63,824 nt of DNA. It comes from Gracilaria domingensis. Lineage: Eukaryota; Rhodophyta; Florideophyceae; Gracilariales; Gracilariaceae. Positions 2,814 through 31,679 of this stretch are shown in pieces; position 1 is the stretch's first letter; each line of letters opens with the position of its first letter. The notes below the pieces were generated by a model. The model worked only from the letters and a program-made list of their open reading frames with translations. It did not search any database and was not told where the DNA came from. Both the position numbers and the translations under genes were made by a program. The DNA lies in assembly GCA_022539475.1 (NCBI GenBank), contig VCMS01000311.1, forward strand, positions 1 to 63,824, read 5' to 3'.

Positions 2814-2892
2814 AGGTTGACCCACTCTTGTGTACCCTCTTTGAGGTTCGTTTTCTCTCGGAAATTCCCGTGTAACGGTTGGTTGGATACCG

Positions 2893-5088
2893 ATGTCTCG
2901 GAAGCCCTCCGATGCGGAGCCTGCGATCACTCGCAGTCGTTCCACAAACGGTGGTAATCCCACGGATGGTCGGCCCCCTTCGAGGATACCAGTCCGCCCT
3001 GAATCTGCATTGGGTAACAGACCGTCCTCGCGGACGTCTAACCCGCCGGCACGCCGGACACTTCCGTTTTCCCCGTTGATCCCTCCCACTGATGGGATTG
3101 CTCCGGCATCTGCCGTTGCCGCACTGGCTCCTGCTGGGCAGGTAAAGGCGACCGCCGAGGCGTCTCAGGCCCGTCGGGAGAAGATTGACGACCCCCAGGG
3201 CGCAACCCTGGAAGAGCAGGTTCGCATGCTGCGAGCTGCTCACAATTCCCTTATGGGAGCCCATGATTCCCTCGCGGGAGAAGTCCGGACGCTCCGGGAG
3301 GAAGTCCGCACATTTCCTGTGAAGGATGTTGCAGAGGATCTCCGTATTTTACGGTCTGATGTCAACTCCGTGCTGGAATGCATTGGAGGACCCGCTGCCT
3401 TCGTTGAAGGAATCGAGACCCGATTCGATCGGATTCGAAGCCGTCTGGAGACGTTGGAGAAGGCCGCTATCGCGGAACTCGCCACTCCGGCGGAGCCGGT
3501 TGAAGTGTCGCATCGCGACAAGAACACCGGTCGGGACAAATCACGCCGCAGACGGCAGGCCAAGGAGCAAAACCAGTACTCCGACTCGGATTCGAGTACG
3601 TCAGCTGACGCCCCGAATGATTCGGAAAGTTCGTCAGAGTCTTCCATCGAAGATGGTCGTGCAGGGCACTCATCACGTTCTAAGCGGTCATCGGCCACCC
3701 AAGGTGTTGTTCGTACCCGGTCGAAGGGACGGAAGCACTCCGAGTTGAAGGAGCTGAAGCCGACGAACCCGATGTATCGGAAGCTACTCTCATACCGGTA
3801 TTACCGTTTGGAGGATTCCTCATTGGATCGCACACCCCGTGGGACGGGTAAAGTGAAGGACTGCATCCGCCGTATGCAGCTCTCACTGCGTAACCAGACC
3901 TTTTCTGGAGACGACCCAGTCCTGGTGCTTGATTTTCTCGCCCGTTTTGTGGCGGAGGCCGATGTTCTCGGGATGAACGAAGGCCAGGCCTACATTGCGT
4001 TACCGTATTTCTTACGGGGGGTGGCCGAAGACCAGTTCAACTCTGTAAGAGGCTCATCTCGTGCCTCCGAAGGAGTGGTTACGTGCTGGCCGGAAGCGGT
4101 TCAGCACTTGCTGCGCTCGTATGCCACCAACGACGCAATCGGCACGGCCATCCTGGCACTCCGGGACCCCCGGCAGAAGTCTGGAGAGACGGAAACCGAT
4201 TACTCGGTCCGCCTGAATAAGGCTTTCCACCGTTGTGGTAATGTCTACCCCGCAGGGGAACGTTGTACGATGATCGTCGATGGCCTCGACCCGGCCATCA
4301 AGACCTTGGTCGCCCGCTACCGCGAGGATAAGCGGAAGATTACCTACCTCGAGTTAGTCCAGTACGCTCGAGTGGAGGGTGATGCACTTCGTGCACGAGG
4401 TCCTGTCACCAGGTCGAAGTCCGCCAAGGCATTGATGATGGAGACTGGATCCCCATCGTTGTCGCTGCACACGAGCGAGGCCTCCCCAAGGGAGTACGAC
4501 AACGTCCAGTTGGCCCAGGAAGGCCGGAGTTCCATTCCAACTACGGAACTACCGTCAACGACGGATGCCTCCTTCGATACCGCTCGGGACAGCACGCTGC
4601 TTTACGCAGATGCAAACCGTGTGAACGGGCCGAGAATCCCGTACGCGAACGGAGCAACCCGTTTTCAACGGCCTGGATGGAAGGACACACGCCCTAGGTT
4701 AGGGTTCACCGATGCTCGGAATAGTAACCCGCGTTCGGGGATGGCAAGGCCGATCTGTCACCTTTGCTACACGCATGGTCACATTTCGCCGCAGTGCCTC
4801 CTCTCGATGAGGGATATGTCCATGGTTACGGTGAACTATGAAGCCTTGACTCCAGAGGAGAAGAGAACCGTCCCTATGACTTCGTACTTGCGTGCGAAGA
4901 CGGACTTCTCTCACGCTGTCGCATCACCACCGCCGCAGCGGAATGTCCAGGCACCACCCGTGCATCCAAACCCTCGGCATGTTGCCGAACCCCAAACCGC
5001 TAACGCGGGACCCCACGGCCAACGAGCCCAAGCACTCGTAGCCGAGGAACCTGAGCAGCCGCCGCAAGCGGAAGTTCAGGGAAACTGA
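2893..5088 (+). CDS. gag: E1 Gag polyprotein
   Basis: 731 codons from an ATG 99 bases after the LTR. The N-terminal 100 residues are Ser/Pro/Arg-rich. A helical, probably coiled-coil stretch follows at about residues 95-190, then an acidic Ser-rich linker. The conserved capsid-like block starts at LKPTNPMYRKLLSYRYYRLED and includes VLDFLARFVAEADV and SVRLNKAFHRCGNVY. One CCHC zinc knuckle, CHLCYTHGHISPQC, lies at residues 622-635. The same block is recognisable in E3, so it is a real capsid domain. The frame ends at TGA 5086, directly after a potential -1 slippery heptamer. Gag would form the particle in which reverse transcription takes place. Confidence 0.9.
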   Translation: MSRKPSDAEPAITRSRSTNGGNPTDGRPPSRIPVRPESALGNRPSSRTSNPPARRTLPFSPLIPPTDGIAPASAVAALAPAGQVKATAEASQARREKIDDPQGATLEEQVRMLRAAHNSLMGAHDSLAGEVRTLREEVRTFPVKDVAEDLRILRSDVNSVLECIGGPAAFVEGIETRFDRIRSRLETLEKAAIAELATPAEPVEVSHRDKNTGRDKSRRRRQAKEQNQYSDSDSSTSADAPNDSESSSESSIEDGRAGHSSRSKRSSATQGVVRTRSKGRKHSELKELKPTNPMYRKLLSYRYYRLEDSSLDRTPRGTGKVKDCIRRMQLSLRNQTFSGDDPVLVLDFLARFVAEADVLGMNEGQAYIALPYFLRGVAEDQFNSVRGSSRASEGVVTCWPEAVQHLLRSYATNDAIGTAILALRDPRQKSGETETDYSVRLNKAFHRCGNVYPAGERCTMIVDGLDPAIKTLVARYREDKRKITYLELVQYARVEGDALRARGPVTRSKSAKALMMETGSPSLSLHTSEASPREYDNVQLAQEGRSSIPTTELPSTTDASFDTARDSTLLYADANRVNGPRIPYANGATRFQRPGWKDTRPRLGFTDARNSNPRSGMARPICHLCYTHGHISPQCLLSMRDMSMVTVNYEALTPEEKRTVPMTSYLRAKTDFSHAVASPPPQRNVQAPPVHPNPRHVAEPQTANAGPHGQRAQALVAEEPEQPPQAEVQGN

Positions 5089-5132
5089 ACGAGGGAGTCT
5101 CCCTTTCGGGAGAGGCGTCCTCAGAGTTGAGG
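5079..5132 (+). promoter_or_regulatory. Putative -1 ribosomal frameshift signal between gag and protease of E1
   Basis: GGGAAAC at 5079-5085 sits in the gag frame as G GGA AAC, the X XXY YYZ form, immediately before the gag stop TGA. A -1 slip enters the protease frame, which is open from 5055. Downstream are a hairpin TCTCCC-tttc-GGGAGA (5098-5113, 12 nt after the heptamer) and CCTCA-gagt-TGAGG. The arrangement matches known -1 frameshift signals; its use is inferred. Confidence 0.65.
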
Positions 5133-5795
5133 CTGTTGACGCCCGAGGCGTCGTTGCCTCGCTCCCCGGTGAAAATCCTCTCGAGGAAAGACGCCGCAGA
5201 CGCGGATTCGGAACACCTCGGTGTTTTGCGTCGACCGTGGATACGGGTAAGGAATAACCGGATCTCGGACCGAATCATGGTGATGGCCAAGCGAAACTAT
5301 AAGGTGTACGCCGAGCTTGGCCTGAGCCCCCAGTTTATGGTGCGTTACCTGACTGTACTAGACACAGGTGCAGGTCCGAACTTCATCGTGGAGTCCCTTC
5401 TCACACCGCAATTGCGGGAACGTATCCGCCGCAGCATGCTTCCTGATGTCGCTGATGCGAATAACAACCCGTTAACAACGGTGGGAACAATCGACTTAGT
5501 CGTACGCTTGGGAACCTCCGTGGTGAAGGTTGACTTCATCGTTTGTCGGTCATTGGCTGCCCCAGTCATTTTGGGTTGCGATTACTGCGACAGGTTTGTC
5601 GATGCAATCAGGCCCCGCCTCAGGCGTGTAGAACTCGACGACGGTTCGTCGGTACCGATCGTCCGTCGTCCGCTGAAGCGGTCATCGCGGAAGCAAGTTC
5701 CACTCCCTGCTGCGCAGGCCCCGGCACCGGCGTCGCGCGAGCCCACCAAGCTCCGCGTCGCCCGTCGATCCGCATCCCGCCTGAGTCCCAAATGA
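5082..5795 (+). CDS. pro: E1 aspartic protease
   Basis: The frame lies -1 to gag. The catalytic motif appears as LTVLDTGAGPNFIVESLL (Asp codon at 5361), followed by VILGCDYCDRFVD, the usual second protease motif with ILG. The homologous frame of E3 has VLDTGAGPSFLVES. The ORF ends at a TGA at 5793. In E3 the same protein continues about 100 residues further, and the E1 counterpart of that linker is scattered over three frames between 5770 and 6044, so E1 has suffered frameshifts here. The enzyme would process Gag and Pol. Confidence 0.8.
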   Translation, partial: KLNEGVSLSGEASSELRLLTPEASLPRSPVKILSRKDAADADSEHLGVLRRPWIRVRNNRISDRIMVMAKRNYKVYAELGLSPQFMVRYLTVLDTGAGPNFIVESLLTPQLRERIRRSMLPDVADANNNPLTTVGTIDLVVRLGTSVVKVDFIVCRSLAAPVILGCDYCDRFVDAIRPRLRRVELDDGSSVPIVRRPLKRSSRKQVPLPAAQAPAPASREPTKLRVARRSASRLSPK

Positions 5796-8700
5796 TGGTG
5801 TCGGTAATTCCCGTCAACACGGTCTTCGGGTTATTCAACCGCTTACCTCGTTGTACGAGAAGTGCCAACTCGCTGTCGCGAATGGCGTTGTGCAAGTCAC
5901 ACCGGATACTCCGTTTCGGATACTCGTTGCCAACTTGGCAGCACCCCCCAGTATCTGGTGAAGAACCAAGTCATTGGGTCTGTGACACCACACCCACTCG
6001 CGATGCTTCCAACGAAGATGACGGCTGCGGATGTTCTCGGATAGTTACCTCCGAAGAGGACGTCGCCTCATCTAAGGAGAGGGAGGGAGTCGCAATTCCT
6101 GCCGCTTCCATGAGTACCACTACCGTCGCAACGGAGAAGCAACCGACTGACTCGGAACCAAACCCTGTGTCAGGGACAGAAGAGCGTAAGCCCACGAGCT
6201 ACGACAAGGTTGACCCCTTGAAGGCGCTCGAGGAACTTGACCTCGGTCATGTACCGGAGTCGCACCGTGAACGTCTAAGAGACATGTTACGGGAGTTTAC
6301 CCTAATGTGGGATGGCTCTCTTGGAGAGATCAATGCAACGGAACACCGTATCGATGTGTTACCGAACACGCGTCCGGTTTCACAACCCCCTTACAGGGCA
6401 GGACCGAAAGCTCGGGAAGAAGAACAGTTCCAAGTGGACAAGATGCTCCGCGCAGGTGTCATCGAGCACGTGCAATCGCCGTGGGCATCCCCAGTGGTAC
6501 TGGTTCTCAAGGCCGACGGAACCTGGAGGTTCTGTGTCGACTATCGCCGACTTAACGCCGTGACGGTAAGAGAAGCTTTCCCAATCCCTCGTATGGACGA
6601 GTGCATCGATTCGCTCGGTGACGCTACCGTGTTCACGGCATTGGATGCCAATTGGGGATATTGGCAAGTCCCCGTCAGGGAGGAAGACCGCGATAAGACT
6701 GCGTTCGTGTGCCACTCGGGCTCCTACCGCTTCAAGCGGATGCCTTTCGGCTTAACCAATGCGCCCGCTACGTTCCAGCGTGCCATCGACATTCTGCTGA
6801 GCCGCTTCAAGTGGCGGACCTGTCTCGTCTACCTTGACGATATCATCGTGTTTTATAGTAATCTGGACGATCATCTCACCCATGTCAGGGACGTGATGAC
6901 CACTCTGCGTGATGCAGGAATCACCCTCAAGTTGAGGAAGTGTGAATTCTTCACCGACACCGTCAAGTATCTTGGGCACATAATCCGTCCAGGACGGCTG
7001 ACGATCGAGGAAGCTCGCGTCAAGTCACTCGCTAAGGCGAAAGAACCGCGGACTCAAACGGAATTACGCTCCTTCTTAGGGCTGGTCAACGTCTACAGAC
7101 GGTTCGTGCCGAACTTTTCGGACATAGCGGCTCCCCTTAACGCTCTCTTGCGGAAGGGCCAGCCACCAAAACTGGACCCCTTCACGCCCGCACAAGCGGA
7201 AGCGTTCAACTCCTTAAAGGAGGCTGTTACGTCAGCACCGATACTATCGTTACCCAAACCGGGATTGCCGTTCTTCGTGGACACGGACTCGAGCGACTAC
7301 CAAGTAGGCTGCGCGCTGTTCCAAACCACTCCCGAAGGAGAACGAAAACCCATAGGGTACTGGTCACGTTCGCTCAACGTTCATGAACGGAACTACTCCG
7401 TTTCGGAGAAGGAGTGCCTTGCAGTCGTATGGGCATTATCCACCCTCCGTCCGTACCTGCTTGGTGTGCACTTTACCGTGTACACGGATCATTCCTCGTT
7501 GAGGTGGTTGATGAATATCTCTGATCCATCAGGCCGCCTTATGCGGTGGAGGCTCCGCCTAGCGGAATTCGACTTCGACGTCGTGTACAAAAAGGGGACC
7601 CTGAACATCCAGGCGGACGCGTTGTCGCGCTTACCCACAAATGGGGAAACTCTGGCCGTCGAGGACGATGATATTCCTTGCTTCGTCGTTGGCGATGATG
7701 AGCCGGAACTCCCGGAGTGGCAGCTAGACGACTGGCCAGATGACTGGGACGATATGGACGCTGACTTCGACGAACTGCTTGTTGCAGGCAAAACCGAGGC
7801 TATAAAGCCCCTACCGGGGAATTTTGTCCCGGTATCACCGGAAGAAATGATCCGAGAACAGCATGGAGACCCGTTCTGTATCAAAGTCCGTGCCCGACTA
7901 AACGGAGGCGACACCCTCCCATTCGAGGTTAATGACATCGGCTACCTCATCAGGACAGTCGAGTCACACCCACAAGTCGTGGTACCACACTCGTTACAGA
8001 CGAGGATCCTACACCTTTCGCATTACGCAAAGTTAGGTGGCCACGCAGGTGGACGAAAATTATACCTCACTTTGAGAAGAGATTTCTACTGGCCCGCCAT
8101 GGCGTTGGATTGTTACGCTACGGTACGCTTCTGCGCCGATTGCGCGAAAAACCGCGTGAAGCTGCGAAAGAATTCCAAGAAAGTGAAACTATTCCCTGCC
8201 AGGGTGCCGCTTGAATTTGTGGCAATCGATATTCTCGGACCATTGCTTACCACTCGGAGAGGTAACAAATTTCTTCTCGTTATCACCGATCGGTTCTCGG
8301 AACTGGTTCGGACAGTGCCTCTAAAGAGGATCACCGCGTTCACGGTCGAGCAGGCATTCGCCACGCACTGGATCTTCGTGTACGGTCCTCCTGTGGAGTT
8401 ATTATCCGATAACGGAAAGCAATTCGCATCCCGGTTCTTCCAGGATGTCTGCCGCATCATGGACGTGAAGAACCTCTTCACGACCACTTACCATCCCCAA
8501 TGTAATGGGCAAGTTGAACGGTATAACCGTACGATATTGGCATCTCTCCGTTCCTACGTTGCTGACCACCCAAAAACATGGGACTTATACACCGACGCGT
8601 TAACCTTTGCGTATAACACGCAGGTACACAGGACTACTGGTGTTTCCCCATTCGAACTGGTTTTGTCAAGGACACCCCCGCCATTGGCGTTAGAATCACA

Positions 8701-8857
8701 AGCTACCTTGGGCAGTTTCCCATCTGTGGGTGATTATCGCCAACAATGGAAAGCGTCGCTAACGAAGTTAGTACCGGCTGCCCGGAAGTCAATGGCGAAA
8801 GCCCAAGCCGCTTACAAGCGTGATTTTGATGCTCGCTTGCGAGGAAGGACCCCTTAA
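5543..8857 (+). CDS. pol: E1 Pol: reverse transcriptase, RNase H and integrase core
   Basis: Meaningful Pol sequence begins around 6100; the earlier part of the frame overlaps protease and is noise. RT shows FCVDYRRLN, MPFGLTNAPATFQ and the active site CLVYLDDIIVF. RNase H shows VDTDSSDYQVG, KECLAV and YTDHSSLRWL. Integrase has an HHCC zinc domain (HYAKLGGHAG ... FCADC) and a D,D-35-E core: FVAIDILGP, LLSDNGKQFAS and NGQVERYNRT. The frame ends at TAA 8855, after which the same frame resumes at once with VGNHVFVRKEH, so the stop looks like a nonsense mutation. It would copy the element RNA and insert the DNA. Confidence 0.9.
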   Translation: MSVIGCPSHFGLRLLRQVCRCNQAPPQACRTRRRFVGTDRPSSAEAVIAEASSTPCCAGPGTGVARAHQAPRRPSIRIPPESQMMVSVIPVNTVFGLFNRLPRCTRSANSLSRMALCKSHRILRFGYSLPTWQHPPVSGEEPSHWVCDTTPTRDASNEDDGCGCSRIVTSEEDVASSKEREGVAIPAASMSTTTVATEKQPTDSEPNPVSGTEERKPTSYDKVDPLKALEELDLGHVPESHRERLRDMLREFTLMWDGSLGEINATEHRIDVLPNTRPVSQPPYRAGPKAREEEQFQVDKMLRAGVIEHVQSPWASPVVLVLKADGTWRFCVDYRRLNAVTVREAFPIPRMDECIDSLGDATVFTALDANWGYWQVPVREEDRDKTAFVCHSGSYRFKRMPFGLTNAPATFQRAIDILLSRFKWRTCLVYLDDIIVFYSNLDDHLTHVRDVMTTLRDAGITLKLRKCEFFTDTVKYLGHIIRPGRLTIEEARVKSLAKAKEPRTQTELRSFLGLVNVYRRFVPNFSDIAAPLNALLRKGQPPKLDPFTPAQAEAFNSLKEAVTSAPILSLPKPGLPFFVDTDSSDYQVGCALFQTTPEGERKPIGYWSRSLNVHERNYSVSEKECLAVVWALSTLRPYLLGVHFTVYTDHSSLRWLMNISDPSGRLMRWRLRLAEFDFDVVYKKGTLNIQADALSRLPTNGETLAVEDDDIPCFVVGDDEPELPEWQLDDWPDDWDDMDADFDELLVAGKTEAIKPLPGNFVPVSPEEMIREQHGDPFCIKVRARLNGGDTLPFEVNDIGYLIRTVESHPQVVVPHSLQTRILHLSHYAKLGGHAGGRKLYLTLRRDFYWPAMALDCYATVRFCADCAKNRVKLRKNSKKVKLFPARVPLEFVAIDILGPLLTTRRGNKFLLVITDRFSELVRTVPLKRITAFTVEQAFATHWIFVYGPPVELLSDNGKQFASRFFQDVCRIMDVKNLFTTTYHPQCNGQVERYNRTILASLRSYVADHPKTWDLYTDALTFAYNTQVHRTTGVSPFELVLSRTPPPLALESQATLGSFPSVGDYRQQWKASLTKLVPAARKSMAKAQAAYKRDFDARLRGRTP

Positions 8858-10515
8858 TCCCTTACGGTGGGAAACCATGTCTTCGTACGGAAGGAACACT
8901 ACAACCCTGAAAAGGGCAAACGTCATAAGCTCTCGCCTGTGGCGGATGGACCGTACAAGGTAATCTCGGTTGCACCGGACACTGTTGTAGTCGAGATCGC
9001 TGACGCGCATGAGCGGATCTCCCGCGACCGCGTGGTAATGGCCCCTCCACCCTCGTCTGAGGTTACCCCGTCTGATACAGAGCCCGTGTCTACGGAGTCA
9101 ACAACACCGGTACCACCGGAAACAAATGTGGTGACAAGACCCTCCGTCCTGCCCCACCTCACCGAGGCCTTACAGACCTCCCGATAGAGTCGGTGCCGCC
9201 GACTGTGTCGGACAATGATCGCCACCAGGGCACCCCCGTTTCTGTCCCATCGCTGAGTTCACCTACCCGCGATGCGGGACATTCTGTTACTACCCACGCC
9301 GCTCCATCTAAGGAGGAGGAGGAGGTTATCAGCTCTGCTGAGAGTCATAACCCGACGTCGCGTCGTGAGGACAACCGTGAAGCACGGACCATACGGAGCT
9401 CTCCGGATGTTCCGGCCAGTGCGCGGGCATCGCGTCCGCAACGCACGCTCGCACGCCGCACACACAGCCCCGTTGCCGGGAAGTCTACACCGTCGCCGGG
9501 TAAGGACACTCACGCAGAAGCGAATTCGGTTAAGTCAACAGAACCTCGTGGCCAACCAGCCGCGCTGGGTCGAACGAAGTCGAAAGATGTCGCCGGCATC
9601 ACGCCGACGCCGTCGGAACGAAGCCCCACTGGGGAAAGCGCAGCGACATCGCGGCCCGCCGCGCGACGCGACGCAGAACGACCAGGAATCCTGGAAAATC
9701 CTGCGGAGCAGGCACGAGCTGAGGAAAAAGAAGTCCCGAGCAACTCGGTAGAACCCGGCGGTACAGCCGTGGGAATGCCGGACACTCCGGGAAGAGTTCA
9801 CGTCATGGACGGTACGGCGCCAAATATTGGGCGTAAAATATCGGCGCAAGCGCAGGCACGAGCGGAGATCACGAGATCGCAAGCCGCCGGCGGTGTCGAT
9901 AACCCCGGTAACCCGGAAGTAACCGTTCAGAACGGGAACTTGAGCAAAGAAAGAAAAGGGCCAACGGCGCAGCCGTTGGAGGACACCTGCAACAGGGAGG
10001 CGGTTCTCCCGAGGGAGTTTGACAGCCAACCGTCGCTACAGTCACGTGCACGCACGGTTGTGAAGCCACCCGAGGTGGGACTCTCGGACGCAAACGGACA
10101 AGGCGGGCACACAGCTACGCCGACGCCGCCGAAGCGGAAGGACCCACGCCGAGTGGCGGTACGCAGCGACATCGAAAGCACCTCCCTTCGGAGGAAACTG
10201 GCGACGCAAAGCCAGGCGCGCGCTGTTACCCCCGTCACGGGAACCGTTCCCCCGCAAGGGTTGTCGAGCGATGAAGTAACAATAACACGGCAAGGCCGGC
10301 AGGTGTACATTCAGGACTACATTGTCGACCGAATTGTCGGGCATACCTCGGACCAGGAAGGCATCTTGTTATACCGCGTCCGTTGGTACGGCTACGACCC
10401 AGAGTGGGATACATACGAACCTATCGAGCACCTACCACGCTCGAAGGTCGTACAGTACCACCGCTCCGCGGGGACAGCCACACCAGCGACGCTGGACGAT
10501 GCCCAAGTGGGATAA
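8858..10515 (+). pseudogene. E1 integrase C-terminus (GPY/F) and chromodomain, broken from pol
   Basis: Following the stop at 8855-8857, the frame to 9187 has VADGPYKVIS, a GPY/F motif, in the integrase C-terminal domain. A frameshift near 9160-9187 leads into the frame 9193-10515 (440 codons). This begins with a long Ser/Pro/Arg-rich, probably disordered linker and ends with a chromodomain: YIVDRIVGHTSDQEG, YRVRWYGYDPEWDTYEP and IEHLP. Chromodomains on gypsy integrases direct insertion to marked chromatin. Unusual here are the roughly 350-residue linker and the two lesions. Confidence 0.8.
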
Positions 10516-10904
10516 GGTTGCCGTGGAAACGGAAGGATACCATGTTGGTAACACACGTCATGTGACGGAAATTGGGCCCACACCACCTAGGTGGAATGCC
10601 TGTCGCATTGACGGTTCGACCGGCTTGCGCCGCTCGAACACCGATTTTCGGAAAGAAGACTCACTCCTGAGGGTTTTTCATCCAGCTCGCTGGTAATGGC
10701 CTCGCTGCCACACCATGAGCATGGTTTTTCCCCTCGGAAGGGTGCGTTTTTCGCAGCGCATCGCATCGCATTGCATTAGCCGGCTACGCCGGTGAGGAAG
10801 GGATACACCGTCGAAGACGTGAATGAAGCAAAGAATCTTTTTATCTCAAGGCTATACTACTGTGAACAGGTAATTACCCACGCATGGGGAAGCTCGGCTC
10901 CTGT
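10516..10904. other. E1 spacer between the convergent pol and antisense ORF
   Basis: 389 bases with no convincing gene. It contains GC-rich short inverted repeats. Transcripts of pol (plus) and of the antisense ORF (minus) would converge here. I see no canonical AATAAA on either strand. Confidence 0.5.
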
Positions 10905-12155
10905 TTACTGGCCGTTGCCATCGCCCTCATTCTGAGGAGGCATACCGCCAAGGCGTTGAGCCAAGGCATCCGCCATAGCGGTGACGTCGTCAGAGGCCGC
11001 ACTAGCACTTAAACCCGCGCCGCGGAGGAAGCGAGCGATAATCGCACCTTCGTTCACACCCGCCGGCGGGGGATGAGCTACAGCAGCCGCAACAGCGGGA
11101 AGAGCCGGCTGAGCCGGAATGGGTACCGGAATGGGTACCGGAATGGGAACCGGAGTGGGAGCGATGAAGTCAGCCGCCGAGGCGGAGCCGACAACCGGAG
11201 CAGAGCCGGCGCCCTCCCCCGCAGGGGTTGCGTCGATCTCTTCGATCATCTCGATATCGTCGCCTCCCGTGTCCTCGGGCTGATTATCCACCATTGGATC
11301 TCCCCCGAGGTACTCTCGGTAATACTCATCCGAGTTCACAAACCCAGTTGGGTGATCGGCCGGCACGCGCCGGGGAGCAGAACGGAGCTCACCAGCTTCC
11401 TCAGCGGTAATCTCCCGATAATCCCACGGGTCGAAGAAGATATAATCGCCCGCAAGAGCGGTATTTCTTCCCAGACCTGGGCCATATCCACCCGTGTTCG
11501 GGGAATCACCGCGACTACTCTGAGAAAGAGGCACTTCGGTCCAGTCGATACTATCGATATAATCGAGGAGGCTCAACACCTCGTCGTTGTTGGCACGACC
11601 CCCGAGGGGGACTTCCAAGTCCAAACTTCGGATGGCCGCCCGCACGCGGGGAGGGATGAACCACAGTCGATATTGGTCATATGCCTCAGCGAGGACAAAC
11701 GCCGCGGTGCGGACAGCCCAATCGGTGACGACAACCGACCACAACCCAGTCCTGGGATCTGTGAGTAGGTATGACCCTAAGTAGGTGAACACCGGGGGCA
11801 ACTCGATGTAGCACCCCCGGCATGCCTCGAGGTAACTCCACCACTCTGGCAGAGGTACATACCGACCCTGTCGGTGCGCAGCCGCGATATGGCGGATCTC
11901 CACGTTCTGATATGGAGCGAAGTACCCAAATTGGGATCGAGACCGCCTCTCATGGCGGATGAAGTTCTGAAGGAAGTTAGACCGCGAGCGGCGCGGGAGA
12001 TATCGAAACTCAGCCCGAAGAATCGGTCTTGTCCAGCATATGGCTTCCTGCCGTGCAACGGGCATCCCCCGCCAGGAGAAGGTTTCCAACGCCGCTAGGC
12101 GGTCGCAGTAACTGATTTCCCCGCGGGTGCGGTGATACGCCACATCGAAGTCCAT
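10905..12155 (-). pseudogene. E1 antisense ORF, C-terminal two thirds
   Basis: 416 codons on the strand opposite to gag-pol. It continues the protein begun by the 12095-12850 frame after one frameshift near 12140. It contains LPEWWSYLEACRGCYIELPP, VFTYLGSYLLTDP and GLWSVVVTDWAV. These match, block by block, the E4 antisense protein (PSWWDHYEVCQWLEVPTPP, VLAYFGSS, AVWSVARSEWAV). An acidic stretch follows, then a P(V/I)P tandem repeat (12-bp units, about 11117-11160), an Ala/Pro tail and a helical end. No known domain is recognised. Conservation between two gypsy families argues that the protein was selected; its function is unknown. Confidence 0.8.
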
Positions 12156-12850
12156 CCTGGCGGGACAGGAAACTCGAACGGCGCCCGGTCTTGCCGTTTG
12201 TCAGCCACCATGACAAAGTTGGCATGGGCTTCTTCCCGGGATTGCCGATTTTCCCGCGCTACCTGATGGACAGGAATCGCGACGCGCGTGCGCCAATCCC
12301 ACGAAGTGGTCACCATTGCCGGGAGGTCCCCCGGAAGGGTGTTGCGTCCGTCGGCATACTCAGTGATGAGGCTTTCATTGAACACCGCAGTCGGGTGGAA
12401 CCACGGAGCGAGCCGGAGGCGCCTCGCATGTCGCCGGTTCGCCGGGTTGAGCCCTACAAGGGAGTTGAAAGACGGCCAGACCACACCTGGATGGAACCCG
12501 AGGACGGGGCCCGCGAGAGCGGCATGCTGCGCGGAGGATCCTGCGACAGTGTTCGATTGCCCCGCGGACGGGTTGGAGCCCTGTTGAGGGAGCGGAACGG
12601 AGCGGAATCCGGTGAGGCCCCGTTGGGGGAACGGTGGTTGGTTCGGAGGCTGATTCGGTGGAACACCACTCATAGTGAGGTCTATTTCCGGTGTCGGAGG
12701 GAAGTTGATCGCAGGAGCGAGAGAGAGTTCGGTACTCTGAGGAGGTGCTGCTACTGCAGGAGCAGGAAGCACGTCGTTGACGGGAGAAGGAGAAGAACAT
12801 ACAGGAGGACCGGGGAGCGCTGCACTTATATCTTCTTGGCTCGGCGCCAT
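12095..12850 (-). pseudogene. E1 antisense ORF, N-terminal third
   Basis: 251 codons from an ATG at 12850, only 44 bp inside the 3' LTR, so its promoter may lie in the LTR on the minus strand. The N-terminus is Pro/Ala/Ser-rich. The last 90 residues hold SWDWRTRVAIPV, ENRQSREEAHANF and FEFPVPP, matching ARWDCRRLEAVPM, EKQSRFGRQQCF and YYIPVAVP in E4. After PVPPG the homology moves to the overlapping 416-codon frame, showing a single frameshift. The E4 copy is one unbroken ORF. Confidence 0.75.
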
Positions 12851-12893: not shown

Positions 12894-13633
12894 TGTAGTG
12901 CAACGCTCATCTATGAGTATTCTGACTGGACTTAGTCATATTTCCCGTTTACGGGTTTGCCTGATACACACCAGTATATGACTAATAGTTACTAGTGGTT
13001 GCCATTGGGATGGTTCGGACACGTGGGACACGGTGGAGCTGATCGGAGGTTGGCCACTACACGTCGGCGGTTGCCACAATTAGTGGGAAGTTTAGTTAAT
13101 ATTATTTATCAATTTTAGTGAGGACACTACTTAGTGCGACGGCGTCGCCGCCGTCGCACCAGTAAAGTGCCCCAACCAGGGTGATCCTACCTCAAGGATC
13201 TTGGCTCTAGCCACTCTCGCCTTCGGCGGTGCACAACTCCTTATCGGAGAAACTTCCCGTTGTAACGGTGCGGCTATCCACCCTGCGTCTCCACAGAACC
13301 CAACTTGGGGAGTGTTATAACCATCTGTTGTCGTGTTCGACCCTGTATAGGGAATACCCCGGCGATACGCCGTACCTCTCTTTTTCCCCCTCTCTCTCCT
13401 ATCTTTCCCTTTCCCCACTCCCTGGTTTCGTCCCTCTTCGAGGCTACTACACTCGCGTGCGAGTCATCCTTCTCTGCTCAACTCTCAACGCCCCGTCGTG
13501 ACGGTTTGGCCCCGGTCTTACACCCGGCTAGTTGCGCCATTCCAGAGAGGCTCTGTTCTCTGGGTTGCCCTCAGTAGAGGAAGATCCCGGACGTCTTCGT
13601 GGTGTCTTTTCCCCGCTCACGGGTTGCACTACA
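12894..13633 (+). repeat. E1 3' LTR
   Basis: 740 bp with the same TGTAGTGCAAC/GTTGCACTACA ends as the 5' copy. It is followed at once by the CTGGT duplication. About 98% identical to the 5' LTR by eye. Confidence 0.95.
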
Positions 13634-14647
13634 CTGGTGATCTTGTCATGGACATGTTCGCGGGAACTTTTCTACGGGTATGGCGAGCCTATCGCTGACA
13701 AAGCATAGGAAGTTCTTAGAGTGCGAGAAGAATAGGCCATATTCCAGCCATGCGAAGCACCATATAACGATTCTTATGGCCGAAGTTCTTCGCGGGAAGA
13801 AGAATGACATCGTGGTTGAACAGGAGGTGGTGGATGCTGCTTCAACGACTTATGAACGGGTTCCACATCGGGACCGAGGTCGGCTTGAATGGGAGGCTCC
13901 ATTTGGATACCCCAGTGCCAAGTGATGCCTGCACATATTACTCAGTTTCTAGGAAGATACTGGAAGGACTGGGAGTTTGTCGACAAGTGTGGACAGCATA
14001 CTGTAGAGCTTTGGGACGAGAAGTACTGAGGAGCTCTGAATCTATTGGATATGCATATGTTGTTGACTGTTGAAGCCAATCGCTATCGCTTACATGTAGC
14101 ATCTCCTGAGATTCGACATCCCCGTGCTGGTATGGGGGTGTTCACGGAGCATAAGATATTGGCTGGGGAAACTATCTGTCATTTTTATGAAACTTTGGTA
14201 TACACGGATCTGACGAACCGGAAGAAAAGACACTTAACGTATGGAACTGGCTGTCTCGGAGCAACCCCTGTGCGGTACAAATTGTTTTCTATGATGGGCA
14301 CTGTGAATGGTTCGGAGTTTCTGCGCCTGAGGAACAGACCAGGATAGGCTCAGGATAGGAAGGAGAGTGAAGTCTACATTGGCCCGGCGCCTTTTTGTAT
14401 CGGGGGCTACATTAACGACGCCGAATATCATGCCGGGGATCCCGATTTATCGCAGCCCCGGTCGAACAGGACTCGAAGTGCCAATGTGCAGATGGTGGAA
14501 GCGAAGTCCGTGATACAGTTTAAGTCCGACCTTTCTAACTATGCTCTACTCCGTTGTAGAGCAGTAAAAGATATTGAGAGAGGCGAAGAGTTGTATTTCA
14601 ACTACGGAGAGCAGTACGTCTCGGACTGGGCTCTGACATTGGAGTAA
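13634..14647 (+). pseudogene. Methyltransferase-SET fusion, 3' part with SET domain
   Basis: After the duplicated CTGGT the frame reads DLVMDMFAGTF (motif I at 13651-13668), then shifts frame to LSLTKHRKFLECEKN. Further on, a frame with EFVDKCGQHTVELWDEKY runs through one TGA into PRAGMGVFTEHKILAGETIC. After a TAG at 14345 the same frame reads IGPAPFCIGGYINDAEYH, then NYALLRCRAVKDIERGEELY and FNYGEQY, ending at TAA 14645. The NYA, GEELYFNYG and RAGMGVF motifs are those of a SET lysine methyltransferase domain. The host gene therefore coupled a DNA amino-methyltransferase to a SET domain. Two in-frame stops and at least two frameshifts mark it as dead. Confidence 0.75.
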
Positions 14648-14896: not shown

Positions 14897-17294
14897 ATGG
14901 GTATAACGCCGAGAAAGCGAAATAGTACGCAGCGTAACAAGAGTAGACAGAAGAAGAGAAGAGCATCGGATGGTACGAATCAGGCTACAAGCACCGCACG
15001 TCCTAAACGGAAGTCTTCCTCGACGAAAGAAAGAGTCAGTGGACGTCCCTCTACAGTACGTTCTCGCTCATCTCGCAGCGGAGTGTCCTCCGGGATTGCG
15101 TCAAGATTTCGTGGATCAGCGAACAATGTCGTGCCGTCAACTGCCGATAATGCAAATCGTGCATCTGTCTCTGCTCCCCAAGAAGATGAGGTAGCTCGGC
15201 CCAGCGGGTCAGGACAGGAGGGCATGACAACTAGAACTGAAGAGGTTCGTATGACACCAAAACCTTCACGTCCCCGGCCGATATCGAAGACCGGAGCTAC
15301 TGGAGCGCAGGTTACGCCGCCCAGTGGATCTGGACAACAAGGGACAATGACGAGAAGTGGTGAGAATCCTAATATATTAAGATCGTCACGTCCCTCCCTG
15401 TGTTCTAGAACTGGGGCCGCTATGAATCGTATTATGGATCGCAATGGGTCCGGACAAGGGAGAAAGACAATAAGAAATCGAGAGATGACTGATAGGCGAG
15501 TTACTTCTCGACCTTCCCCTCTTTCGAGAACGGGGCCCGTTGTAGCTCGTACAAGGCCCAATTCATCTGATATACGATGCCAGGGAGGAGGACAGACACG
15601 GGAGTTGGAGCTCGGAGCCGTGCCAAGGGTGCACACAGAACGCCTGCAGCCTCTCGTGTCTAAGGGTATGGCACATGAGGATAGTTCCGATAACGAAATA
15701 ACACCGAATCCTGCGGCATTACCGGTGCCTGTCGCCGAAGAGGCTAGGGAAATACCGGAACATATCCACACTGGTGTGACTTCAACCACTATGAACAGAC
15801 GTGATCTTTTAAATGAACTGAATTACTTGAAAGAAAAGGTTAAGAGGCTACAAGAGGACTTAATGGTTCGGGGTATTCTAGTGAAGGTCGCCTAAGAGCA
15901 GAGTACGGCTTTGAAGAAGAGGCTTGAGGAGAGGGATCTAGTCATTGAAGTGCTTAGGGGGACACTGAAACAGGAGGGAGATAGGAGTACACGTGCTGGT
16001 GAACCTGGGCATACAGGTCGAAAGAAGCATAAAATTGATGTGTGCGACGAGTTTCGAGGGGTTGCTCGAGCAGTGTATCACAAAATTCTGACGTGGGCAA
16101 GGAGAGAAACAAGTGTGCTATGATTCAAAGGTGAGTCGCTCACCCGAAATTGGAGTAACCGTGCCGAGAAGGTGGAAGACGCAACTGAGAGTGGGGAAGG
16201 GCTTATTGAGCCGGAGGAAGGTGGTTCATACATGGTTCCTAAAAACCCCGTGGAGCTCTTGGGCAGTTTTGGCATGTTCACACCGTCGGTAGAGGGGGGG
16301 GGCAGATGCTTTGCGGAAGAAAATGGTTGAAAGCGAGTTGAAGGAGTTGAGCTGGGAAGGTATTAGAAAAGCATCTCTTACCGACAGGTGTATACTGGAA
16401 CTTTGTGCAGATATGTGCCTTAGGCAGAGAATGCGGCAGACCATGAGTGACGTCGTGGGCGTTCGGAAGAGAAATACGAGAGATAAACTATTTCTGCTCC
16501 TGGGGTACGATCTGATTTGGAGAAGAACAAAGCTGGTAGAAGAGAATACTGACGAACTCACAATGCAGTTGAAGGAAGCGCAGGAGAACATACTGCGTCT
16601 CGACGAAAATGGTCTACCGAACACTTCATGGTGGAGAAAAGCCCCATTTGTTCGTCTAAAGTACTCCAATGCGGAAAATGTGGAGGATAGGCCGACGGAA
16701 GATCAAGACTTGTTCTTCCGAAACCGTGTCGGGGTACAAGTACTGAAGGCGTTTGTTGGGTATGATGTGGAAGACAAAGATACGGGCACCTTTTTAGATG
16801 GCACAATACTGTTGGTCGCACGTTTGGAAGCTTGGGTGTTGACGGTTGTGAGTCTTCTAAGTACGGATGTATCAAGGGGTGGCCAGAGACAGAAACTGTT
16901 TACATAGAAGTTTGCCCAACTGCTACCTCTGTGTTTAAAGAATGTTCTGGGGGATGTTAGGCAACATGTCTTGAGGACCAATTCCAGCTAGTTTCATAAT
17001 TATGGAACGACAACGGAAAATTGGACTAAGGTTCTTGGTAATGACATGAGGGAGGCTACATTTGGATATCGAATGCCGTCGAACGGAAGACTTTACCTCA
17101 CTGTGAAAGAACAATTTTTTATTGACAGTGTGAGCCGAAGATTGGGGTCTATTAGCGATTGTTTCGGTGGTGAATGCGAGGAAGGGGATATGGAGTTCAA
17201 GGAAATGGACATGAACGATTTCGAAAGTAGCACAGGATCACAAGAAAAGGCACCACAAGGTGAACATGTAGAGGATGGAGCCCTTAATGTTTAA
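14897..17294 (+). pseudogene. Repeat-containing coiled-coil protein of unknown function, broken
   Basis: An ATG at 14897 opens a 332-codon frame. It has a basic N-terminus (RKRNSTQRNKSRQKKRR), then three imperfect repeats of about 40-45 residues, each with a GSGQ box and an S(R/K)TG box, then a coiled coil starting LLNELNYLKEKVKRLQEDL. The frame continues through TAA 15893 (ALKKRLEERDLVIEVLRG) and a TGA near 16121. It then shifts at a run of nine G (about 16294-16302) into 16311-16907 and 17046-17294, with helical, Leu/Glu-rich sequence. It ends 11 bp past the end of the convergent transposase remnant. I do not recognise the family. It is probably an accessory gene of the same transposon, by position only. 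Confidence 0.55.
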
Positions 17295-20200
17295 GGCTGT
17301 ACAAAATCAACGTGCTCAGTTGGTCCTTCATCTGAATCATGATAGAATCGATTGATGTAGATTCGGTGTTGAAACCATTGAAGTGGAGTACAAAAGGTGG
17401 AGCAGGGTAGTTTGATCGAACGACATGGACAGTTCCCTGTAGTGCAGAAGCCGGAACCGTCCCGTACCAATGAGTTAACTCTACGATAGTCTCCGCTTTG
17501 GAATGACGAGGGAACAGAAGAGTGTGGGTATTTTCATCGTTTGTAGACCACCGTAAAGATATGCATTTCAATATGTGGTCGATGTTTGTTGCGGGGGGTA
17601 AAACCTCGAAATACCGGACGAATGCCACCTCCGGTGCGGTAAGTGCAGAATCAAGGAGAGATATTCGAATCAGAGCGACTACCTGGGCAACCCAAATCTC
17701 TGAATCTTCTCCACTTACGAATACAATGAAAAACTTTGGCTTTCTACTGGGACCAAATGCTGGAAAAGGGAAGAATCGTTGGATGATGGGGTATTTGGGT
17801 CGTCCCAGCTTAAGTGCCCTAGAAGAAGAATCGACGTGTTCAAGAGTCGGAACGAAACCGCCTTTCACGAGGGCCGAATTCACCAGAGTTATCATTGTCT
17901 TTTCTGGGAAGTATGTAATAAAGTGTTCATCCAGTGTTTCTCTCACGAGACTGAGGAAAAGAGGAAGGACCTGTTCACCAATTTGGTCAAGAATCGACCT
18001 TGGGTCCGTACTTGAGAACATCTCTCTAACAGCAGTCCATGTTTTTGAACTGGACATACTTGAAACACAATGTTGAAGAGCTCGTAAAGTGAAAGAACGC
18101 CCTCTCATTGCAAATCGAGGGAGCTGTGTGGAAGTTCCTGGTCAACCTGGATTACGCTGGTAAGGAGGATTGCCATTCCATTGCTTTCTAACATGTCCGT
18201 GCTCAATAGAGCGAATAGTCTCCTCCACAGCCGTTGCTGTTCTTCTGGACGTCTTTTTGTAGTGTCTCTTAAATAGCAGGTGTGCATGTTTGTATATGCT
18301 TGCTTCGTAGTATTTGATACTTCCCAGACGGCGAATATCGTCCACGAGATGATCGAGAAGATGAAACTTCAGAGTTCCCAGTCTGGAGGGATGAAAATCC
18401 GCCAGAGTCTTTGTTGCGGAACGCTTGAAGGCTTCAATCTCCGAACTAAGAAACAGGAGAGAGCTTTCAGTCCAATACGGGTCACGATTGTATCCGAATA
18501 AGGTCGAAAGCAAGTCCGCGTACTGAGAGAAAACCGTTGTGACTGGGGTAACGTCCTGTTCTCCACAGCATATGTCAAAGAATGTTCCTATGAAGAGGAA
18601 GACCATATCAAGTGCTTTGTAGTTTTTGGCCTCCAGCATTCCACGGAGAGCGTCTTTCGTGAAGATACAATTCAACGATTTGCCTTTCTCCTGCGTGGAG
18701 AAATCGATATATAAACCTGTGGCAGGAGAATCGTGTTCTATGGCAGCTAGAATTGCGTTTGCATGGTTGAGAAGTTGGGTGCGTATCGTTCGAAATGAAC
18801 GCGATTCAGATGTTCCTATTGTAGTGCACAGGGTGTCTGACTGCAGTCTCTCGATTGTGGCCGTTTTTATCAGCTTCGAGATGCCGAGATGCAAGTTGTT
18901 CAATGGTTCGAATGAGAACAGACTCTATGGAGACAATCCCGGGATCATTCCAAGGCTTACGGAAGTTTCGAGGAACGAAGGAATGAGAGATATGGAATTT
19001 GAACGCATCAGAGTATCCGCCTGAGATCTCCTCTCCATCGCACGACGCGGAAGTCTTTCCGTCTCGTCTTTTTGTGCATGTTGCAAGATAGCTGTGTATG
19101 TCTTACGGGTGCTTTTAGTGTGCTTTTAAGAACGTCTGTTGAATGAGGTGGGAACAGGACTGCATAAAGATGAGCGAGGGGATTGCATCTATGACACGGG
19201 CTTTCCGTTTTGGTCCCATGAAGAATGGACAGAATTTCCTTAGCCTCAGAAATATTCGCATAATAACTTGCAAGCAGAGGATGGCACTCTCGCCTTAGTT
19301 TGTCTTCGCCGATGAACTGAAAACCTTTCTGCGTGAGATTTAGAATGGGCTCCAGGACTTGAGGAAGAGATTCTTGAAGGATTTGCATCCTGGACTGGCG
19401 TAGGGACTTGCTAGAAACAAATGACATTGCGTCTGCTTCAGATGCAGAAACCTCGATGAGAGTGGTAGGGAAGTATGCCACTACTGTGAGGTCATCACGG
19501 ATGCACTTACGACGTAGCTCGTCGGAGAAGTTGAGAAATATGAGGTGAAGAAGATAGGCGGTAACAGATGTTTGCTTTAGATTTTTTGAAGACTTGTCGG
19601 TGTAAACCTGCAGAAGACCTACGAAAGATTCACTGTGGCTTATTTCTTAGGAGTACCACACTATTCTACTATCCAAGAAGCCCATGACCATTTCCTTAAG
19701 TTTTGAAGTGGGGTCTCTTGCGAGAGAGCCGGACATGGGGTGAGATATTTTCGTGGAGTGGGTCTGAGGTATAGGGTGGAAGAATGTGTTTTCGTTGTTA
19801 GCCAACTGGAGCTGTTTCAAAAGTGTCTGAACGGGATCTCTCATGTAGAGGGTGGCGCTGAACTTATATCCTTCTGGCGAGACAGTTCTTCGATTGAAAC
19901 CGTCTTTTGAGGCGTATCGTCCGAAAATGGCGTTCTTCAGTTCTGTACAGCGCTTGTAACTTGTTATGGTCTCGTTGAATCGCTTTTGCGAGTATCACGG
20001 GTCCTGAAGTAGCCCAATTAGCTCGTCTGCTTCACGATGACCAAGGTTAGAAGCTACTGAAGCCAGACAAACCGTGAGATAATCCATATGCAAATCACCG
20101 AGGGCCTCCTCAGAAGTCACTGGGTGGGAACTGCTTCCGTGTTCTCTCTCTGATGACGCGGGATCCGGGGAAGGAGAAACAAAATGCGAAGTGTCCGGAA

Positions 20201-20381
20201 TGAGAGGGGCGCACGGAGTGGGGTCTACGATGTCCTCGGACACCGGAGGCTCGGGAAGGCGACAAGACCCAGTGACCGTTTCGGAAGATGCAGGCGCGGG
20301 CGCGGAAAGCTTGAGACGCTTGCTTCTTCGAATGGGCCGCCTTTGTCGTCTTCCAGCGAGGCTTACAGACGAGACGGCCAA
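17284..20381 (-). pseudogene. Plavaka/TNP2-like (CACTA-related) transposase remnant
   Basis: Reading from 20381 down, the first 128-codon frame is basic and Ser/Pro-rich. The frame 19481-19008 has ECHPLLASYYANISEAKE followed by CHRC, like the 'PILA-Y-aD-pE ... C-xx-C' block of Plavaka/TNP2 transposases. The frame 18903-18142 has GTLKFHLLDHLVDDIRRLG, YKHAHLLFKRHYKKTSRR, the signature tail of that family. The frame 18108-17284, in the same frame beyond a TGA, has ISLLDSALTAPEVAFVRYFE and LRWSTND. Frameshifts near 18930-19007 and several stops break it. It would have cut and pasted the surrounding element; I could not find the terminal repeats. Confidence 0.6.
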
Positions 20382-20832
20382 TGATTGACATGCTATTGAA
20401 AAGATAACACTCCTCCGCTAGTAACGAACGGGCACCCCCGCTTCTTATGTGTACAGTAGTAGACAATGGGAAGAAGGAACGAAGGAGAAACGACGACAAA
20501 GACGGCAAAAGAAGGTCTTCCGAAGGGAGAAGGAGGTCTGGCGACAGTCAAGATCGACGTCAAGCTGAGAACGGAGAATACATTTTCAGTTTAAATCACG
20601 TGCTTTCGTTCAAAAAGGAACGTAGGTACACGTCGACCTCAACACAAGGGTGTACTTCTCGTATTATCTACCACTGGTTATAAACCTGTGGTTTTCACAC
20701 GTTGTACGCTGTACACCTGTCTAATCTCGCACAGAAAAATAAATCTCTTCCTTCCTCCGCCGCCCCCGCGCCTCCGACGTCCGACCTTTTGTTAACGTCG
20801 TGATCCGTGCCATCCTCGCGTTCTACTCCGCT

Positions 20833-20894
20833 CCGTCGTACGTTTTTCCGCCCTCGCACTCGCTAGAGTGCGAGGGCGGAAAAAAGTACGACGG
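20833..20894. repeat. 62-bp hairpin, 29-bp arms
   Basis: Arms 20833-20861 and 20866-20894 pair over 29 bp with one mismatch around a GCTA loop. The core arm is CCGCCCTCGCACTC. It could be a foldback or MITE scrap, or a terminator-like structure. Confidence 0.9.
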
Positions 20895-21163
20895 ATTACG
20901 AATTAGCGTGCTGAGAATGGATTCCATTAAGCGGACATGAAGCGTACCTTATTCTCTTTCTCCGCCCTCGTCGGACGCCTCCATAAAGCGGACAGCATCC
21001 GTATCTCACGGATGTATTCCGTGCAGTCTTTCCGTGCATTCTTTTCGTACGTGCTTCCATTTCCTTCTACGTATCTTTGTTCTAAACTAACCAATCCTCA
21101 CCACGTCTCTTCGCGCTCTGCGACATGTAAACGGCAGGAAAAAGGCTTTGGGCTACTTTTGCG

Positions 21164-21297
21164 AGTTACTAGGTCCCTCGACTCTTCTAGCGCAACGTTT
21201 CTGTTTTGCTCTTATCAATGGTACGTTCTATCGCATTTCAACTGTATCCAACGGAGCATTGACTAACTTATGGATACTTTCTGCTTGCGTATACAGG
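21164..21297 (+). repeat. Direct repeat copy 1 (134 bp)
   Basis: Begins AGTTACTAGGTCCCTCGACT and ends GCTTGCGTATACAGG. It is nearly identical to 21541-21673, with a handful of differences. It is a local duplication or a short dispersed repeat. Confidence 0.9.
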
Positions 21298-21540
21298 AAA
21301 ACGACCAATTTCATTTCGTCTCTCAAGATCGATCTCTGGCTGTCGGGATAGGCGATTCTGGTACTTGGTTGGGACATAGGCTGCTCTCTCGTTTATCGCA
21401 TCTTGGGGTATTTTGGCTGCATGGGCATTCTCAGTGTCGTTGCTTGTGAGTTCTCAATTCGAGACTTTTCGCGCTTTACGATGAATGGATTGTTGGTAAT
21501 CTAACCGATCCCTTTCCTTCTTCTTCTTCTTCCTTTTGCC

Positions 21541-21673
21541 AGTTACTAGGTCCCTCGACTTTTCTAGCGCAACGTTTCTGTTTTGCTTTATCAATGGTAC
21601 GTTCCATCGCATTTCAAATGTATCCAACAGACCATTGACTAACTTATGGATACTTTGTGCTTGCGTATACAGG
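21541..21673 (+). repeat. Direct repeat copy 2 (133 bp)
   Basis: Second copy of the 21164-21297 sequence, about 95% identical by eye. A CTTC-rich tract just precedes it. Confidence 0.9.
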
Positions 21674-21718
21674 TAAATGACTTTTGATGCGGACGTAGCT
21701 CACGAGTTGCAGGTGCAG

Positions 21719-25040: not shown

Positions 25041-25042
25041 GC

Positions 25043-31270: not shown

Positions 31271-31679
31271 CGAATTTAATTTAATTTAAAAGAATGCATC
31301 GTGTGACACACCCAGAAAACTCTCAAAAGCTTTATTTTTGGCAGTTAGCGCCTTATAGAATTCCAATCAAAGATACGGAGGTTTTAATTTTCTCACCAAA
31401 GCTCCCTGACTTTCGGTGCAAAATGTCAAAAGTTTTTTTCTGGAGACAACTACAGTACTATGAAAAAGCGACAGCTATGCTGCTAAATAAATTGTGAATA
31501 TTTTGTTCTAAGTTAAGGAAAACCTATTTTTTCAGTCATAAAAACTTCATTATTTGTTGCAGTTTGCAGAAAAAGACATGTTAGACATTTGAGCCAAGGA
31601 GCTTTGCGCCCTTTTTGGTTGAGATGATTTCTTCTCAAAGCGCTGATATTCGCTCAAAGAATCCAGCAAGAAAAGCCTC

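Follow-up and report, generated by a model that had tools for sequence, protein, structure and literature searches.

The stretch of DNA analysed here (hereafter the window) is one contig of 63,824 nt from the red alga Gracilaria domingensis, and the genome searched amounts to 77.9 Mb. The window contains two Ty3/gypsy long terminal repeat (LTR) retrotransposons with a chromodomain, E1 on the plus strand and E4 on the minus strand. Each of them carries, between the chromodomain and the 3' LTR, an antisense open reading frame (aORF) on the strand opposite to pol. Judging from sequence comparisons, the aORF is one homologous protein-coding accessory gene of chromodomain Ty3/gypsy elements in Gracilariaceae red algae.

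E1 is bounded by a 5' LTR at positions 2054-2793 (740 bp, with termini TGTAGTGCAAC...GTTGCACTACA) and a 3' LTR at 12894-13633, the latter directly preceded by a purine tract. Both LTRs are identical at 728 of 738 aligned bases, and the target duplication is the 5-bp CTGGT. The gag and pol stretch spans 2845-8857 on the plus strand, with a gag frame at 2845-5088, in which no Pfam family scored above the cut-off, and a pol frame at 5534-8857 that matches RVT_1 (E 2.7e-35), RT_RNaseH (8.8e-37), Integrase_H2C2 (1.3e-12) and rve (1.1e-8). The chromodomain (PF00385, E 1.2e-8) lies at 10318-10458, residues 415-461 of the frame 9076-10515. With its LTR pair, target duplication, purine tract and the order of reverse transcriptase (RT), RNase H and integrase, E1 is a member of the Ty3/gypsy LTR retrotransposons. 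A common CCGACTTAGAA stands immediately inside the 5' LTR of E1 (2794-2823) and of an E4-type copy on contig C27 (L055:2227-2260), where it occupies the primer-binding-site position in both; a scan of the window for tRNAs and Rfam families (gathering threshold) gave no match.

The initial annotation had placed a long ORF on the minus strand of E1, between the chromodomain and the 3' LTR. Place and strand were borne out, but the window copy is not a single frame: it consists of two frames, 12871-12095 and 12200-10905, which overlap by 106 bases. The first part (12095-12850, with its ATG at 12850, 44 nt from the 3' LTR) encodes an N-terminal Pro/Ser-rich stretch and the start of the conserved core, and the second (10905-12200, in a different frame) the remaining core, an acidic linker and a C-terminal motif. 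A genome search with this second frame returned at least 99 match rows (97 of 1233 candidates scored; copy counts here and below are lower bounds, from the best candidates scored). Nine of the rows fall in a stop-free frame of 651 aa, in which both parts are joined, so the window copy is frameshifted and its split is a defect of that copy, intact ones being present elsewhere in the genome. Another 22 rows fall in a stop-free 721-aa frame that belongs to another family, E5 (48-52% identity with E1). Between the pol stop and the aORF stop, the non-coding stretch 10516-10904 has an identity of 0.81 between E1 and its relative E1b (in locus L032), compared with 0.74 in the aORF; a conserved RNA structure is unsupported there, with folding z values of -1.8 and -0.8 for the two strands.

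E4 sits in the integrase frame of another element, E3 (52774-56997), and loci L061 and L062 match E3 up to position 56997. The E4 3' LTR occupies 56998-57569 (minus strand, 572 bp) and is followed by the complement of a purine tract. Its outer end is the limit of homology between copies, and of E3 homology in L061 and L062, while its inner end was placed by the inverted-repeat end and the purine tract. On the plus strand come then a leader from the LTR to the antisense ATG (57570-58562), the putative promoter and 5' untranslated region of the antisense gene, and the aORF itself (58563-61292), which is, as initially annotated, a single open frame of 909 aa opposite to pol, with the conserved core at 59157-60110 (residues 199-516). 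An AATAAA is found at 61332-61337, 40 nt beyond the antisense stop. The 3' part of E4 pol (61445-63823, minus strand) is truncated by the window end and has its chromodomain at about 61502-61639; it matches RT_RNaseH (E 1.1e-35), rve (9e-13) and Chromo (4.7e-6), and Ty3/gypsy membership was judged on this 3' half, the part of E4 inside the window. An E4 LTR of at least 2.2 kb enclosing the antisense ATG, considered from two copies 11 kb apart on contig C27, was ruled out because the purine tract and the inverted-repeat end set the 3' LTR at 56998-57569. That stretch of C27 (1-13370, loci L055, L012 and L056) is probably a tandem E4 pair with one common LTR and a period of about 11.1 kb. Regular steps of RT or integrase matches, of 11.6 kb on contig C144 and 8.1 kb on contig C94, suggest further such tandem arrays. 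Loci L057-L060 were also considered as solo LTRs and rejected, all of them being aORF-bearing copies.

Homology between the two antisense proteins is supported at several levels. By BLASTP, the E4 protein matched the second E1 frame with an E value of 2e-12 (about 25% identity over 171 aa) and intact E1 copies with E values as low as 2.7e-15; against the first E1 frame nothing was significant (best E 0.11). A comparison of profiles, set beforehand as the test that could refute the relationship, gave a significant match: hhalign aligned E4-type cores (7 rows) with E1/E5-type cores (7 rows) over 248 columns, with a probability of 97.5% and an E value of 8.2e-12. A profile built from 11 non-E4 proteins gave 57.3 bits to the E4 core, -15.6 bits to the reversed protein and 5.0 bits to the best of the shuffled cores (1216 of 2000 shuffles reported). 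The homologous core common to both comprises about 300 residues. Among the ordered blocks that the initial annotation had listed as shared, P-x-WW..E-x-C, PPV-x-YxGS and WSV...WAV hold, whereas QSR and FxFPV are not family-wide. Over 554 aa, pol has an identity of 48% between E1 and E4, so the aORF, at about 25%, evolves faster.

Regarding selection, we calculated the ratio of non-synonymous to synonymous substitution (dN/dS) by NG86. Within the E4 family (21 pairs), 18 of the 19 pairs with dS above 0.1 gave ratios of 0.12-0.29 and the remaining one 0.48, while two closer pairs gave about 0.43. Ratios were 0.21-0.23 between E1 copies and E1b (8 pairs), 0.21-1.21 within E5 (10 pairs) and 0.33 in the one E6 pair. 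In five deep E4 pairs, the core showed values of 0.08-0.09 and the N- and C-terminal parts 0.145-0.225. The constraint is specific to the annotated frame: relative to the E4 copy L003, six copies other than L043 gave 0.14-0.22 in the aORF frame and 1.47-3.0 in the other two same-strand frames; on the opposite strand, the frame that shares its third positions with the aORF gave 0.25-0.33. The near-identical L043 gave 0.41 in frame against 0.80 and 1.28 in the others. Likewise, E1 against E1b yielded 0.25 in frame and 1.5 and 1.9 out of frame. For comparison, the pol ends of E4 copies have ratios of 0.23-0.42, and E1 against E1b gives 0.63 in the pol end (poorly aligned) and 0.40 in the chromodomain. 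Judged by these ratios, the aORF is under strong purifying selection in the antisense frame. Together with the profile match, they uphold the proposal that an antisense coding gene has been conserved, in one and the same place, in two diverged chromodomain gypsy families.

The same copies revealed mosaic elements. The pol ends of L034 and L041 are like those of L003, L043, L042, L040 and L035 (dS 0.06-0.23) and distant from that of L036 (0.70-0.73), whereas their aORFs are like that of L036 (0.18-0.23) and distant from those of the other copies (0.72-0.81). Their leaders track the aORF, with identities of 0.78-0.79 with L036 and 0.48-0.55 with the rest, and their LTRs track pol (0.87-0.95, versus 0.83-0.86 with L036, over 110-506 aligned bases). 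The pol stretches compared are short (625-872 aligned bases), with a three- to twelvefold gap in dS. Between L003 and L034, L041 and L036, leader identity is 0.53-0.55 (509-639 of 993 bases alignable) and aORF identity 0.78-0.80. These patterns show that leader and aORF have passed as one cassette from one E4 subfamily to another, without pol and LTR.

In order to see how general the aORF is, we turned to the rest of the genome. The E4 protein gave at least 54 match rows (50 of 1076 candidates scored), 24 of them stop-free over residues 1-909, as counted from the match table. Ten loci were then hand-picked from 150 RT matches (1776 candidates) to cover a spread of scores, and at each of them 2.0-4.2 kb were read from about 3.5 kb past the RT, two reads ending early at contig ends. 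Seven of the ten carry an aORF homologue in the same place and on the antisense strand: L045 and L048 (family E6), L049, L051 and L054 (E7), L052 (E8) and the degenerate L047. Regarding the other three, L046 has the chromodomain end of E8 without an aORF, and what is left of the aORF in L050 resembles the opening 20 codons of the E6 frame; by their sequence, both look like deletion derivatives related to aORF-bearing families, and are possibly non-autonomous. L053 has neither aORF nor chromodomain and matches instead a repeat of the window at 17171-21681 (91-95% identity, contig C115). Hence, at least seven families are aORF carriers (E1, E1b, E4, E5, E6, E7 and E8), and all seven have a recognisable chromodomain, with PF00385 above the cut-off in E1 and E4 and similar C-termini by tblastn in the others.

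The aORF core profile also found annotated proteins. One of them, FGB62_50g12 of Gracilaria domingensis (P0004, E 2e-80), lies on contig C50, with 411 of 419 residues identical apart from an insert skipped by its gene model. A host related to the Perkinsus-like dinoflagellates had been considered before these Gracilaria proteins were found and was rejected; a spliced-leader pattern had 0 matches with up to 1 mismatch. A second profile search extended the family to a related genome, as had been proposed, with Gracilariopsis chorda BWQ96_03215 (617 aa), BWQ96_05177 and several unnamed proteins (8 hits among 8000 candidates scored); the E4 protein alone gave no hit among the 8000 best candidates. 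In a midpoint-rooted tree of 17 rows, the G. chorda protein and P0006 (100/99) group with E1 and E1b (92/100, not among the starred nodes of the tree), P0008 groups with E6 and E7 (100/99), and E4 stands apart (100/100); the branches of E8, E7 and P0009 were flagged as long. On this tree, the aORF families appear to predate the split of Gracilaria and Gracilariopsis, the alternative being transfer between hosts.

The aORF proteins are about 610-909 aa long and have an N-terminal stretch rich in Pro, Ser, Ala and Gly, a core of 293-318 residues and an acidic low-complexity part, which is basic in E4. A C-terminal motif, I-x-x-FL-x-x-AG...AL, is present in E1, E5 and G. chorda and weak in the others. 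The core contains 29-40 Arg and 0-6 Lys in all seven proteins counted, figures that carry no control for the general bias of the genome. No membrane segment was detected in any of eight proteins, the largest 19-residue Kyte-Doolittle mean being 1.15-1.54. PDB sequences gave no match of note (best E 0.35), and no Pfam family, the basic leucine zipper (bZIP) included, matched P0001, P0002 or P0003 at E values up to 1. The plant retroelement family TRP28 (PF04195) had no match in the genome at E values up to 10, although none of 14 control genomes matched it above the cut-off either, which leaves this search without a positive control. PF04195 was also absent from the Pfam matches of P0001-P0003 (E up to 1) and of 14 cores and 6 outside proteins (E up to 5, in a scan whose filters drop most matches above about 0.1). 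The aORF thus appears to be a protein family without known relatives, and the family, its chromodomain setting and its host group appear new.

We also analysed elements without a chromodomain. Five E3-related elements, taken from 102 integrase-search rows, were read over 4.2 kb downstream and showed no similarity to the E1 and E4 chromodomains by tblastn; an aORF is absent from all five, with no tblastn E value below 0.36 and no profile score above 0.3 bits. However, L062, a copy of E3 itself on contig C128, carries an antisense frame of 471 aa (L062:1885-3297, plus strand, the element being on the minus strand) between pol and a stretch that matches the E3 5' end. This ORF is unrelated to the aORF (profile score -1.1 bits, no BLASTP match at E values up to 1) and has neither a Pfam match above the cut-off nor a PDB sequence match. 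In its C-terminal part we see by eye an arrangement NC...H...D, which we take to be the one found in cysteine proteases. A genome search with the 471-aa protein gave at least 84 rows (90 of 117 candidates scored), and on eight contigs (C128, C1, C41, C26, C100, C98, C160 and C417) the match follows closely downstream of an E3-type integrase, on the opposite strand, with 35-100% identity. One pair, too close for a verdict on selection (dS 0.011), gave a dN/dS of 1.04. We had considered that antisense genes might be tied to the chromodomain; L062 led us to reject this, an antisense ORF in the slot between pol and the 3' LTR not being confined here to chromodomain elements, and our claim is limited to the aORF family. 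In this genome, two gypsy lineages therefore each have an antisense ORF in this slot, the two ORFs being unrelated, which suggests that these elements benefit from the slot itself, as the source of a second message read from their 3' end.

The rest of the window holds further repeats. Element E2 (23949-26782, minus strand) has gag-like frames related to E1 (a 226-bp match at 73%), and no aORF match was found near it. A unit at 34385-41230 has the appearance of a DNA transposon bounded by long terminal inverted repeats: its arms of about 1.08 kb (34385-35457 and 40146-41230), 99-100% complementary and with a 15-nt periodicity, enclose minus-strand frames of 653 and 531 aa. By eye, frames 41347-42687 and 46963-48057 resemble what we take to be Harbinger/DDE transposases, and two adjoining frames at 14030-14647 presumably a SET-domain protein. 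A tandem repeat with a 12-nt unit and 21 registered copies occupies 31626-31985.

Antisense genes of LTR elements are known in deltaretroviruses and debated in HIV-1, and we know of no chromovirus with an antisense accessory gene. The aORF elements are like chromoviruses in having RT, RNase H, integrase and a C-terminal chromodomain in this order, and we call them chromovirus-like by the chromodomain after the integrase, a class given by domain order and not by RT phylogeny. An antisense gene at this position is a known kind of arrangement, found in plant Retand elements and deltaretroviruses. The accessible text on the Retand (Tat-lineage) Ty3/gypsy elements describes one or more antisense ORFs between pol and the 3' LTR throughout the lineage, with a proposed regulatory role, in a non-chromovirus lineage in which 97% of the clusters encode TRP28 (PMC11963269). 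The aORF shares with them its antisense place between pol and the 3' LTR and the lack of a known origin outside transposons, as far as that text goes (PMC11963269); it differs in that its elements have a chromodomain, in that TRP28 was not found in its proteins and in its hosts, red algae instead of flowering plants. HBZ of human T-cell leukaemia virus 1 (HTLV-1), the related deltaretroviral antisense genes and the antisense protein (ASP) of HIV-1 are described as encoded opposite gag-pol in the 3' region, with antisense transcription from the 3' LTR (PMC8622228, PMC3182985). Like HBZ, the aORF is opposite gag-pol in the 3' region, where its ATG in E1 lies near the 3' LTR; unlike HBZ, it is long, and no bZIP or other Pfam domain was found in it. 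LTR elements of bdelloid rotifers have repeatedly gained accessory ORF3s after pol (GDSL, DEDDy, env-like), but these are known enzymes or env proteins, and none is described as antisense in the accessible part of that report (PMC5408684). For brown algae, chromodomain gypsy elements outside the chromoviruses are reported, and so is an Ectocarpus DNA transposon with an accessory gene on the opposite strand (PMC12477816). Our search of the open-licence literature turned up no report of an antisense gene in a gypsy element of a red alga or in one with a chromodomain.

What the protein does can be approached mostly by analogy, and our best reading, to which we give about equal belief and doubt, is a trans-acting regulatory or RNA-binding protein. 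Transcription of the aORF would begin near the 3' end of the integrated element, in the 3' LTR of E1 and in the leader of E4, and run towards pol, as inferred from its position, the E4 AATAAA and the behaviour of HTLV-1. The transcript would end before the pol stop, the distance from aORF stop to pol stop being 0.15 kb in E4 and 0.39 kb in E1. Its product would be a soluble accessory protein that binds RNA or DNA or otherwise regulates, acting in trans on the expression or RNA of the element itself; HBZ offers a known model for such action and the plant Retand antisense proteins a supposed one. In this picture, function would reside in the core; the tails rich in Pro, Ser, Ala and Gly would act as flexible linkers, and the RG-rich tail would give E4 an extra part for binding RNA.

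Several observations weigh against this reading. Near-identical E1 copies (28 pairs) have dN/dS values of 0.57-1.15 and the one E7 pair 0.76, and non-functional aORF copies are common. A ratio near 1 had been named at the outset as refuting a coding gene, and the outcome does not refute it: deep pairs are strongly constrained, and the values of the near-identical copies are what one expects of recent copies that decay nearly neutrally once inserted, older differences having been filtered. In the shallower pairs L034-L036 and L041-L036, moreover, the core rises to 0.22 and the N and C parts to 0.35-0.72. The isoelectric point of the core ranges from 6.0 to 10.1. The RGG tail and AATAAA that had been noted in E4 are indeed there (3 RGG and 13 RG), but neither is a family feature: the RG-rich tail occurs in E4 alone among eight proteins, and the AATAAA after the aORF stop in E4 alone among eight sequences. 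Within about 110 nt past the stop, we noted by eye, without statistics, GATAAA in E1 and E1b and AGTAAA in E5, E6 and E7. Pfam, NCBIfam and PHROGs gave at most weak matches below the cut-off, and nucleic-acid binding rests on composition and analogy because no family matched. A structure model from the window sequences alone had a mean pLDDT of 32, worthless for the fold.

Other explanations have to be weighed against the regulatory or RNA-binding protein. Because the genomic RNA must cross the same region, it and the aORF mRNA would form a complementary pair along 2-3 kb. With four loci in the genome that have a Piwi domain above the cut-off, an RNA-level or anti-silencing role becomes worth testing. 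A protein that binds or hides double-stranded RNA, or blunts silencing where the host has RNA interference, would fit with the antisense coding region lying inside the element, and hence inside its genomic RNA, and with the RG-rich tail of E4. Still, no double-stranded RNA-binding or other known domain was found and the other families lack that tail, so we consider this proposal unlikely. Copy-number control, with the antisense RNA or protein repressing sense expression or assembly and so limiting insertions, seems to us quite unlikely. It has in its favour the HTLV-1-like place and orientation of the gene, HBZ being described as lowering sense transcription (PMC8622228); a purely RNA-level version, however, needs no constraint on the protein, and such constraint is seen.

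The RG- and R-rich stretches could also belong to a particle or RNA-packaging protein, with a separate message supplying an extra component of nucleocapsid-like or structural type. We regard this as very unlikely, since the aORF has no similarity to the gag-region frame of E1 (hhalign probability 0.1%) and a CCHC zinc-knuckle layout can be made out by eye in that frame itself (not called by Pfam). Env-like ORFs usually lie between pol and the 3' LTR, and the position of the aORF would suit an envelope-like ORF3 for cell entry; the opposite strand and the lack of a strongly hydrophobic segment in eight of eight proteins make this extremely improbable and nearly refute it. Finally, one could argue that these are chance open frames in GC-rich sequence and no gene at all, as the sense strand also has overlapping frames of 250-260 aa. 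Cross-family homology, frame-specific dN/dS and open frames in dozens of copies refute this explanation, whose likelihood we put at practically nil.

Going further, the aORF might represent a new class of retroelement gene, a wider proposal that we hold tentatively and consider rather doubtful as a whole. In it, an antisense protein family with an unrecognised domain would have been fixed in a red-algal chromodomain Ty3 lineage before the split of Gracilaria and Gracilariopsis, would protect or control an element that transcribes a long complement of its own genome, its host having four Argonaute-type genes, and would recombine as a promoter-plus-gene cassette. If the second, unrelated antisense gene of E3-type elements is real, accessory genes would have come to this slot repeatedly, and the strategy of HBZ and Retand would have arisen here independently. 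One more such gene under strong selection on its protein would point to a recurrent habit of LTR elements, that of placing an opposite-strand gene at their 3' end. With dozens of intact copies in the genome of one seaweed, the purpose of such genes would become testable outside an infectious virus.

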